Positions 18,079-20,751 of a stretch of 34,676 bases of DNA are shown one piece after another. The stretch lies in NCBI GenBank assembly GCA_021824565.1, contig JAKAKL010000046.1:1-34676 (forward strand). The letters run 5' to 3'. The stretch's first letter is position 1, and each line of letters begins with the position of its first letter. The notes under the pieces are model-generated. The model did no database searches and was not told the origin of the DNA. It was given only the letters and a program-made list of their open reading frames with translations. Made by a program: the position numbers and the translations under genes. This DNA is from Bacteroidota bacterium. GTDB lineage: Bacteria > Bacteroidota > Ignavibacteria > Ignavibacteriales > Ignavibacteriaceae.

Positions 18079-18792
18079 TTAAGCGGGATTGCTCGGAGTT
18101 TGGGCAGATTGCGTTGCATCGCTTTCTGCCTTCGCTTTGTTAGCCGCGCTTAATTTTACCACGCGTTTTGCTGCATGGTACCGGGCGCAGAAATCAGGCT
18201 GCTTGCCTTCAAGATTTCGTATATAACGGCGGAAACGGTTCGCTACTATCGAACTGTTATCCGACATTAATTGTGCTACTGTCTTGGTGGCAACTACGCT
18301 CGTCTCTTCACCCTGGCTCTTGCCCGTTCTAGCCGCATCGAATGCCTGCAGTTTCGCTTTCGCGTCTGCAATTCCTTCGGCGGCTAAACCGTGATCTTCT
18401 AGAGCCGGTTCAATACGCCCCGTAAGATTAAGTATCGCCATTGATTTTTCGCTTAGCTCGGTGTCCCTTAAGCTGTTCAGAAAAGAATCATTTGTATTGC
18501 TCTGTGTTTCGAGCTCTACATCTTTCTTTTCCGCAGCATAATTGTTCACCGCGTCGGCTACTATTATAATCGCTGATACTAGATCTTCGCGCGCGTAATG
18601 CTTTTGTTCGGTCTTTCCTTCGGTTAAATCTGGTTTGCCGCTGTCCTTTATCTTAATCTGCTGCAGATTTTCTTCGAATATGACCGACCATCGCTTGAAC
18701 CCTGGAATTGAAGATACGATAGCGTCCTCTTGAACAAATAGGTCATGAATGCGCCAGTGCGCTTCGTTTCTGTTTATGAATCTATTATCCAT
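18079..18792 (-). CDS. Helical protein resembling an uncharacterised Bacteroidota family
   Basis: 237 aa from the ATG at 18792, which has AAAGGAG five bases upstream. An in-frame TTG further upstream also has AAAGGAGTGT before it: the ten bases are directly repeated at 18795-18804 and 18845-18854, so a longer form is possible. The protein is Ala/Lys/Glu-rich and helical, with no signal peptide. The C-terminal part ('FRRYIRNLEGKQPDFCARYHAAKRVV') recalls the F..xxP.FY..Y.AAR.I ending of a family of ~220-aa Bacteroidota proteins with no known role; that is recall, to be verified. The last ~25 residues are an Ala/Ser/Gln-rich tail. It is the last gene of a six-gene minus-strand cluster. Confidence 0.8.
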   Translation of the reverse strand: MDNRFINRNEAHWRIHDLFVQEDAIVSSIPGFKRWSVIFEENLQQIKIKDSGKPDLTEGKTEQKHYAREDLVSAIIIVADAVNNYAAEKKDVELETQSNTNDSFLNSLRDTELSEKSMAILNLTGRIEPALEDHGLAAEGIADAKAKLQAFDAARTGKSQGEETSVVATKTVAQLMSDNSSIVANRFRRYIRNLEGKQPDFCARYHAAKRVVKLSAANKAKAESDATQSAQTPSNPA

Positions 18793-18899: not shown

Positions 18900-19535
18900 T
18901 CAACCTGCAAAAACTCTTTCCTCTGTATAATTACTTATTCTTAAACTTAAACTTGACCTTGAACTTAACCTCGCCTTTGTCTCATTCATCACCTGACAGC
19001 CTCCATTTATCTCTGACCGGGTGATTTCACTCAACGGCGCCCTCGCATTAATCTCCGGCGGGGTGATTTCACTCAACGACGCCCTGTCATTAATCTCCGG
19101 CGGAGTGATTTCACTCAACGACGCCCTGCCATTAATCTCCGGCGGAGTGATTTCTCTGAATGACGCCTCACTATTAATCTCCGGTGGGTCGGTATTATTT
19201 TCCGGCAGACTGCCATTAATCTCCGGCGGGGTGATTTCTCTCAACGGCGCCCTCGCATTAATCTCTGGCGGGTTCTCATTTATCTCCGGCGGATCGGCAT
19301 TAATCTGCCGCGGGTTGGCATTTTTTAAAGTCCGCCTGCCGTTTTTCTCCGGTGTGATGCCGTTTTTTAAAGACCACTTTCCGTCTGTCGACATCAACCT
19401 GCCATTCTTTAATAGCCGGACGGCATTTATCCGCGCACTGCTTTTATTTATCTGCAGGCAGACAACGTTTCTGCCCGGCAGATTATTATCAAGCGTACTC
19501 ATCACTCTATTTGCTTTTGGGATTTTACGGTTCAT
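18900..19535 (-). CDS. Heptapeptide-repeat protein
   Basis: 211 aa. From about residue 22 nearly the whole protein falls into seven-residue units with Asn at one position and Ile, Leu or Lys just before it, for example NADPPEI, NENPPEI, NARAPLR, EITPPEI, NGSLPEN, NTDPPEI. Nine of the units are PPEI types. There is no signal peptide, and Cys is rare. An AGAGGA lies 12 bases before the ATG; the inner ATG at 19502 is an alternative. The minus strand is preferred over the open plus-strand frame because it has a proper start and ribosome site and lies among minus-strand genes. A regular seven-residue period with a hydrophobic every turn suggests a solenoid or fibre rather than a coiled coil, since Pro is frequent. 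Function unknown. Confidence 0.65.
   Translation of the reverse strand: MNRKIPKANRVMSTLDNNLPGRNVVCLQINKSSARINAVRLLKNGRLMSTDGKWSLKNGITPEKNGRRTLKNANPRQINADPPEINENPPEINARAPLREITPPEINGSLPENNTDPPEINSEASFREITPPEINGRASLSEITPPEINDRASLSEITPPEINARAPLSEITRSEINGGCQVMNETKARLSSRSSLSLRISNYTEERVFAG
18979..19482. repeat. 21-bp / 42-bp tandem repeat array
   Basis: Twenty-four consecutive 21-bp units, the clearest being a 42-bp double unit from 19021 to 19272, starting 'gtgatttcactcaacgacgc' on the plus strand. Units 19063-19104 and 19105-19146 differ at one base. Outer units are diverged but keep the period. The freshest units are about 55% GC (23 of 42 bases), higher than the flanks. The period is a multiple of three, so reading frame is kept on both strands. 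Confidence 0.9.
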
Positions 19536-19662
19536 TGCTGAAAAGAATCCTCTTAATTAATTCTTCCATATAAACTGCAAAAAACTCCTGATATAAATTC
19601 CCGGCTATTTTTTATTTCCTTTCTTAAGATTAATATTTTTTATTCTCCTGTCTTCCCTATTT

Positions 19663-20751
19663 TCAGAGAAGGTTTAAACCATTTAGATCAATGTGCAGCC
19701 CGAGAGATACGTTGGTTGAATTAATAAAAGTCGGAGCCGCATCGCCGTCCTGGTATTTTAAATTTAAAGTCTTCCCGTCCGTTACCGGCACGCTCAATTC
19801 AATAGACAATAATTTTCTTTCCTTTTTATTTGAAGGATCATACGACACTGAAGTGGAAACTCTATTCCAGTACTGGTAATCGATAAAAAATCCGGAACCC
19901 TTTCCCATCAAGCCTGCAAAACCCCACTGAGCTTCCGCGTTAATTCTTCCCTCTTGAAACGGGTCTTTATCTTTCTCAGCAACGTTGGCGTATTCGTACC
20001 CCGCGGTTACATAAACGTTCTGCAAATTTGGAAACGGAGACAGAACAATAGACGTGAACACCATACCGGAAATATCATGGTAGTTCAAAGTCTGGATCGT
20101 ATTCTCCTGCGTGTGAATGCAAAGCGGGCGCATCTTCAAAAAACCGGGTATCACCTGTTCAAGCGACCACAGGTAGGATATATTGAATTTAATATTGTTC
20201 GAAGGATCGTCCTTCTTCGATGAGATAGTTCCCTCAAAGTTAAAGTTGAGTGTATTTGTTATTACCGCTTTTACGGACCAGTAAAGCCCGAGATCGCCGA
20301 TTGTATTCTGAGTGCTGTCGCTTTGGATCAATACGGGCGCGGCTGTAAACTTCCAGCCGATGGATTTTTGCTCTTCGTATTTCTCGTAGCTTTCCTCGCC
20401 TTTTAGAAGCTGCCTGAAATTATTTTTATCGATCAGGATATTATCACCAATAAAGTACAGGTAATAAGTCTTGTCATAAGATAGATCAAGCCCGGTGAAT
20501 TTTATTCCATCGCCTTTTAGATGCCACTTTAAAGGACTGCGCAGAGGAATGTTCATACCGGCGCTGTCCGCGAGCTTATACTTAGAGACATCAAAGTACT
20601 GCTCATCTATTTTTTGATTAAATAATATTCCCATAGCATAAAGACCATTTTTATCTTTGAATATCTGTATTGAATCGATCTTTATTTGAGTATGAATATT
20701 AGCCGCGATAAGCCAAACTGTAATCAACGCAAAACTTATTCTTTTAATCAT
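19663..20751 (-). CDS. Exported beta-rich protein, possible outer-membrane barrel
   Basis: 362 aa with a signal peptide (about 1-21, MIKRISFALITVWLIAANIHT) and a good ribosome site GAGGTGA. Residues ~22-130 look like a soluble beta domain with 'KYKLADSAGMNIPL'. From ~135 on, alternating polar/hydrophobic strands with aromatic girdles ('LGLYWSVKAVITNTLNFNFE', 'GSGFFIDYQYWNRVSTSV', 'LGLHIDLNGLNLL') suggest an outer-membrane beta-barrel. It lacks a terminal Phe and a T9SS tail. No family recognised. It lies within the six-gene minus-strand cluster. Confidence 0.8.
   Translation of the reverse strand: MIKRISFALITVWLIAANIHTQIKIDSIQIFKDKNGLYAMGILFNQKIDEQYFDVSKYKLADSAGMNIPLRSPLKWHLKGDGIKFTGLDLSYDKTYYLYFIGDNILIDKNNFRQLLKGEESYEKYEEQKSIGWKFTAAPVLIQSDSTQNTIGDLGLYWSVKAVITNTLNFNFEGTISSKKDDPSNNIKFNISYLWSLEQVIPGFLKMRPLCIHTQENTIQTLNYHDISGMVFTSIVLSPFPNLQNVYVTAGYEYANVAEKDKDPFQEGRINAEAQWGFAGLMGKGSGFFIDYQYWNRVSTSVSYDPSNKKERKLLSIELSVPVTDGKTLNLKYQDGDAAPTFINSTNVSLGLHIDLNGLNLL

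Follow-up and report, generated by a model that had tools for sequence, protein, structure and literature searches.

An intergenic 21-bp minisatellite as the probable source of an apparent heptad-repeat protein in an Ignavibacteriaceae bacterium

The apparent seven-residue-repeat protein read from the minus strand at 18900-19535 of the window, a stretch of 34,676 nucleotides from a Bacteroidota bacterium of the Ignavibacteriaceae (GCA_021824565.1, contig JAKAKL010000046.1, positions 1 to 34,676), is most likely a by-product of a 21-bp DNA array lying between genes. The array itself is probably a non-coding, dispersed intergenic minisatellite that evolves by whole units, one of roughly 100 arrays of 21-bp period in its genome. 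Direct support was obtained for the existence of this class, its position in spacers, the presence of several copies of two of its families, the scarcity of indels and, in four tests, the lack of protein-level constraint. The kind of element is ordinary, an intergenic minisatellite, and what is unusual is the uniform 21-bp rule.

The array and its open reading frames

The ORF list of the window contains a 211-aa ORF on the minus strand at 18900-19535, the residues 3-184 of which, when cut into fixed steps of seven codons, form 26 consecutive heptads without a register shift, 19 of them ending in Asn. The original prediction had assigned about 190 of the 211 residues to a strict seven-residue period, and this was borne out, with 182 residues counted in register. 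It had also described near-identical inner 42-bp units flanked by diverged outer ones, as if the array had grown recently from an old heptad protein. Recent growth holds at the level of DNA, where 42-bp units lie inside an older, diverged 21-bp array; a single base in 42 separates two inner units framed from ATCACT. Periods of 42 and 84 bp were reported by TRF (scores 286 and 317), and in a lag scan the mean identity was 0.57 at lags 21/42/63 and 0.74 at lags 42/84/126, above chance. The plus strand over the array is likewise open (19021-19560, 179 aa). Two minus-strand ORFs, 19663-20751 and 18079-18789, flank the array. The features are as follows.

18984-19529, minus strand: 21-bp tandem array of 26 units in one register, read as 26 heptads on the minus strand
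19003-19272, minus strand: core homogenised to 42-bp higher-order units (TRF period 42, 6.4 copies, score 286)
18900-19535, minus strand: 211-aa open reading frame over the array, judged most likely a by-product and no gene (ORF list, coding tests)
19021-19560, plus strand: 179-aa antisense open frame on the same array, also judged a by-product (codon score 0.020)
19536-19630, minus strand: leader beyond the ORF, in common with the copy on contig C16 (18 mismatches and 4 gap columns over 94 aligned bases)
18933-18973, minus strand: tail of degenerate (AAGTTC)n hexamers, simple-repeat sequence that matches many other places in the genome, on contigs including C141, C16, C5, C105, C132 and C46

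The 236-aa product of the neighbouring ORF 18079-18789 has no Pfam match and a weak, sub-threshold NCBIfam match, and its codon usage is gene-like (score 0.195).

Under the preferred reading, the element would consist of tandem 21-bp units and a short leader and would have spread by copying to a few genomic sites. Growth and shrinkage would proceed by whole units, through slippage or unequal crossing-over, and whole-unit exchange would homogenise the middle to 42-bp units, the edges staying old and diverged. In alpha-satellite DNA of eukaryotic centromeres, with its 171-bp unit, a homogenised higher-order core is likewise bordered by diverged single units; the likeness to the window array in core and edges is an analogy only.

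A genome-wide class of 21-bp arrays

The source genome (4.59 Mb, 148 contigs) was sampled in 20 stretches of 20 kb and later in 20 more, making 834,676 bases with the window; the 40 stretches were placed regardless of repeats, yet on contigs with earlier matches, and the sample is thus not strictly random. In the first 20 stretches, TRF reported 25 clusters, 14 of them with periods divisible by 21. Such periods account for 10 of the 12 strong tandem arrays (TRF score at least 75) in the source-genome sample, 2 of 6 in the genus (363 kb), 0 of 6 in the family and order (360 kb) and 0 of 6 in the phylum (329 kb). In a lag scan of the 834,676 bases, 16 places were found at period 21 and 19 at period 42 (union 20), and no period indivisible by 7 had more than one place; the corresponding period-21 counts in the genus, family-and-order and phylum samples were 3, 1 and 0. 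Two places are set aside: the window, selected because of its array, and L080, one of the 16, which looks like an acidic coding repeat and stands outside the class. The remaining 18 lie in 800 kb, from which about 100 arrays in the source genome are estimated by extrapolation.

The members of this class share their period and little else. When 17 arrays, one per family, were compared in all pairs by blastn, the sole match was a weak one of 44 bp (E 4e-4) between L072 4640 and L151, the two most AT-rich arrays. All 23 arrays that were placed among ORFs of at least 100 aa (L011, at a contig start, was left out of the 24) sit in spacers, one of them reaching the earliest potential start of the ORF that follows. 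The spacers comprise 13 tandem, 7 convergent and 2 divergent ones and 1 contig edge, L009, in the def-groES spacer, having been scored as tandem though divergent since GroES falls below the 100-aa cut. An ORF of at least 100 aa lies over 13 of the 23 arrays, and such ORFs are common.

Arrays of this kind were also met elsewhere in the order. Five weak profile matches (E 4.9e-4 to 0.0097) were obtained in 163 other order genomes, and four of these (L053, L054, L055 and L057) are 21-bp arrays with stops within the matched stretch; the fifth, L056, has no tandem repeat. Perfect or near-perfect 7-bp tandem repeats were also seen in some members of the phylum, in L107 (G210) and L120 (G205), and once in the source-genome sample (L162:12540-12628). 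No account of such 21-bp arrays in bacteria was found in the open-access literature among the matches listed.

Constancy of phase

For 24 arrays, which with padding amount to 10,128 bp (bounds set by hand from TRF output), the fit of a cyclic profile gave 3207 mismatches to consensus against only 8 indels at a distance of over 63 bp from either end. Six of the 8 are compensating +3/-3 pairs in L071, and the other two are net phase shifts, in L069 and L161. Another 30 indels were placed no more than 63 bp from the limit of a padded region, for the most part in the padding. The hand-set bounds enclose 11 of them, 10 at 13 bp or less from an end and the last at 24 bp, because of which the phase at the extreme array edges is less certain. 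The mismatches within the hand-set bounds amount to 2851 of 9336 bases. At 18985-19535 of the window, 212 mismatches in 551 bp are accompanied by no phase-shifting indel. As a control of detection, 132 of 144 artificial deletions were recovered by the fit. Eight flank stretches beat their shuffles; five of the eight have a positive score, and four of these five are in phase.

A neutral minisatellite, in which a mutational process (slippage, or rolling-circle copying or template switching with a two-turn ruler) sets the 21-bp step and no later selection acts, is a possible account, to be given somewhat less than even weight. It agrees with the homogenised cores and diverged edges, as expected from unequal exchange, with gaps between copies that are all 21 bp, with the few divergent spacers (2 of 22 classified, the divergent def-groES spacer being misclassed there) and with unit sequences that differ between families. 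However, even diverged units stay in phase, the 3207 mismatches standing against 2 net indels away from the ends, and indels do arise outside arrays, albeit in small numbers: in the leader, 4 gap columns versus 18 mismatches, and in a flank common to contigs C67 and C45, one 6-column gap versus 8 mismatches. Moreover, arrays with stops in every one of the six frames hold their phase about as strictly as the remaining arrays do (one of the two net shifts is in such a closed array), and for them a reading frame cannot explain the spacing.

The 21-bp spacing would therefore seem to be kept by a rule at the level of DNA. Under the preferred reading of a non-coding minisatellite, selection or a molecular ruler would hold the period, and the most plausible cause would be that units have to face the same side of the helix at a distance of two turns, either through protein binding or through the two-turn step of a duplicating enzyme. 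The two-helix-turn reading is rivalled on equal terms by one in which the duplicating machinery itself measures out 21 bp. The notion of a helical phase rests mainly on the number 21, because the 10.5-bp signal is weak or absent and other multiples of the turn are missing, the lag scan of 834,676 bases having shown no arrays near 31-32 or 52-53 bp. The 10.5-bp harmonic within units is weakly raised in information content (z 2.2) and is not raised in base composition or A-tracts, and DNA curvature via phased A-tracts was rejected on the missing A-tract harmonic.

Other structural signals were recorded in the same arrays. The 7-bp harmonic is raised inside units (A+T z 2.8, AA/TT z 2.7). An ancestry of the units in 7-bp repeats was rejected, the lag-7 autocorrelation in eight arrays being 0.20-0.33, close to background. 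Dyad symmetry is increased in some families, with a combined p of 6e-9 under one null and 7e-6 under another; both nulls break short A/T runs, and the signal is therefore given no weight. As RNA, the array folds mildly better than shuffles (z -2.1 and -1.8), which repeats can produce, and no Rfam family was found in the window.

Copies in the source genome and comparison with known elements

Two further copies of the window element occur in the source genome, on contigs C19 (80% identity across 347 bp) and C16 (74% identity across 437 bp). About 95 bp upstream of the ATG are common to the window and the C16 copy, so that two of the three copies share a leader and have the ATG in the same position; the C19 copy is without the 5' part and without the ATG. 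No window-family match was found in 58 relatives at E 0.001, and close copies of the family were found solely in the source genome when relatives, order and phylum were searched. No match was found among PLSDB plasmids.

The C16 copy is placed between def and groES. Ten other groES-bearing pieces of the genus carry a close groES, and def was found on one of them, G006, where the def-groES spacer measures 485 bp without the element versus 951 bp with it in the source genome; the G006 spacer is not alignable with the element and is too diverged for placing a junction or a target site duplication. In G005, a homologue of the 19663 ORF (60% identical) is followed after 64 bp by an ORF with no clear likeness to the 18079 ORF (best E 0.69), and no tandem repeat was found on the piece carrying it. 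Just upstream of groES, at about 1430-1465 of L164 (G000:C16), stands an inverted repeat, TTAGCACTC-N9-GAGTGCTAA, which resembles a CIRCE/HrcA site. This repeat is kept between the source genome and G006, and most of the surrounding spacer is not. A palindrome-like stretch, GTAGAACAGACTTTAGTCTGT, perhaps a REP-like repeat, lies beside array elements, in the 5' flank of L176 (G000:C47), with a similar stretch beside the C19 copy in L008.

A second array family was examined in nine copies, some of which have leader or tail pieces in common. In five pairs, the best local alignment contains no gaps other than ones of 21 bp. Separately, two contigs, C67 (G000:C67:1-945) and C45 (G000:C45:26651-27643), have a common flank of about 450 bp that is 97% identical, and the arrays beside it differ in unit make-up. 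This pair may reflect either a rapid turnover of whole units or variation among strains within the assembly, duplication and assembly variants being indistinguishable here.

Among known systems, the nearest relative is BrickBuilt of Porphyromonas gingivalis. As described (PMC4596501), BrickBuilt is a MITE in which a leader and a tail enclose a minisatellite of 23-bp units; it is present in 19 intergenic copies in one strain, and its repeats, which show 0-11% mismatches and 0-6% indels, are without matches outside the species; some copies overlie hypothetical genes predicted by pipeline without proteomic support. The arrays studied here resemble it as so described in having short tandem units without spacers within an element of several intergenic copies, and the leader of about 95 bp in two of three window-family copies, together with the pieces in some second-family copies, may be set beside its leader and tail. 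By the same description, rather than by BrickBuilt sequence, the unit differs (21 bp, not 23 bp), and the present arrays differ from that single family in their one 21-bp period across many unlike families and in the scarcity of indels. The 464/PgRS elements of the same species, a family with 41-nt repeats (PMC4596501), are similar in that tandem repeats are internal to a dispersed element, and are unlike the present arrays in unit length and sequence and in being one family.

That the element is a miniature inverted-repeat element of the BrickBuilt type, its interior a minisatellite by chance and its movement due to an IS transposase, is rather unlikely. The several copies with leader or tail pieces in spacers, and the restriction of close window-family copies to the source genome among the genomes searched, are in its favour; however, no convincing terminal inverted repeats were seen by eye in either family, the 5' ends vary between copies, and the element is not filed as a MITE. 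Retro-copying, suggested by common 3' ends and variable 5' ends, was set aside as an idea only, three reverse-transcriptase matches in the genome proving nothing. Dispersal by transposition is not established.

Coding potential of the open reading frame

Searches with the ORF product gave no indication of a known protein. There was no match in Pfam or NCBIfam, nothing better than E 0.61 among solved structures (PDB) and no homologue at E 0.001 in 58 other relatives; a profile search of 197 other phylum genomes likewise gave none at E 0.001, and none was confirmed when genome contigs and viral contigs were scanned with two short peptide patterns. An AlphaFold2 model without alignment was uninformative (mean pLDDT 44).

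The codon-usage score of the ORF is 0.069, below all of the 23 window genes picked by hand as reference (0.133-0.322) and below a closed frame on the same strand (0.16); two further ORFs score 0.195 and 0.179. With base identity kept, no synonymous excess was found between the window and the C16 copy (16 vs 13.8 expected) or the C19 copy (8 vs 8.2 expected), unit pairs being matched by hand, nor in three separate pairs of the second family (23 vs 20.7 expected, p 0.32), and there was no BLOSUM excess between copies. Across 16 arrays, the third codon position was no more variable than positions 1 and 2 (difference -0.005 +/- 0.029); the window array was scored there in its open plus frame (a tie), and its minus-frame entropies at positions 1-3 (1.17, 1.39, 1.33) show no third-position excess either. 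No purifying selection on the amino-acid sequence was thus detected in copies of both families or in the 16-array codon-position test.

As 21 is a multiple of 3, arrays of this period often hold an open frame, hence the "heptad protein". When GC and array structure are held constant, the window array has a probability of 0.21 of showing a wholly open frame, and the minimum stop counts of 24 arrays fit the null (combined p 0.67). Seven of the 24 arrays were dropped as copies of a family for counts over 17 families, L069, with its phase shift, being also dropped in the codon-position test; a fully open frame was found in 9 of the 17 families, vs 5.0 expected (P 0.02). In the minus frame, none of the three copies of the window family has a stop in its array, vs 3.3 and 1.4 expected with relocated substitutions and 4.4, 3.0 and 3.5 expected from column shuffles. 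Before any correction, differences between copies favour codon position 3 (18/27/34 and 12/13/17 at positions 1/2/3 in the window family), and in the second family they are 80/60/96, summed over overlapping pairs. In that family, the N/K-S heptad frame is largely open in the nine copies examined; 5 of the 9 have stops within the heptad run, and no start codon is visible at a common place. Several sister arrays carry stops in all six frames yet keep phase. A frame-breaking repeat number cannot decide the matter, because a 21-bp unit never breaks frame.

A real, fast-evolving gene for a low-complexity heptad-repeat protein, secreted or disordered, with the other arrays as its decayed relatives and with frame and the Asn/hydrophobic pattern alone mattering, is accordingly improbable: the stop-free frames of the three window-family copies, the common ATG in two of them, the mild excess of open frames in the class, the largely open second family and the lean to position 3 speak for it, but the codon score is under that of the 23 genes, the synonymous excess is gone once base identity is kept, there is no BLOSUM excess and no codon-position signal within arrays, the second family has its stops and lacks a common start, and closed arrays show no extra indels, unlike what decayed genes would. 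Of the original prediction, then, the period is real, and its reading as a protein, as a fibre or solenoid, finds no support in the codon, synonymous and closed-sister tests.

A parallel is offered by CRISPR arrays, which, according to PMC7673337, can be translated into spurious proteins, a repeat array being read there, as here, as a false repeat protein. The window array is unlike a CRISPR array in that its units abut and spacers are absent, where a CRISPR array combines identical repeats with unique spacers.

Implications

Repeat "proteins" of seven-residue period in such genomes call for caution, as they can be translation artefacts of 21-bp arrays. For the class itself, many unlike arrays share one period, tolerate substitutions and contain few indels, even though some of them cannot code for protein, which leads to a testable question: what measures 21 bp, a protein that binds the arrays or the apparatus that produces them? 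A tentative and still doubtful answer is that the roughly 100 unlike intergenic arrays are all kept at 21 bp by a sequence-indifferent constraint at the level of DNA, imposed by a protein that reads spacing or an enzyme with a two-turn ruler. If true, this would point to a protein that reads spacing on one face of the helix, with a nucleoid or boundary function, or to an enzyme with a ruler of two turns that makes or renews the repeats.
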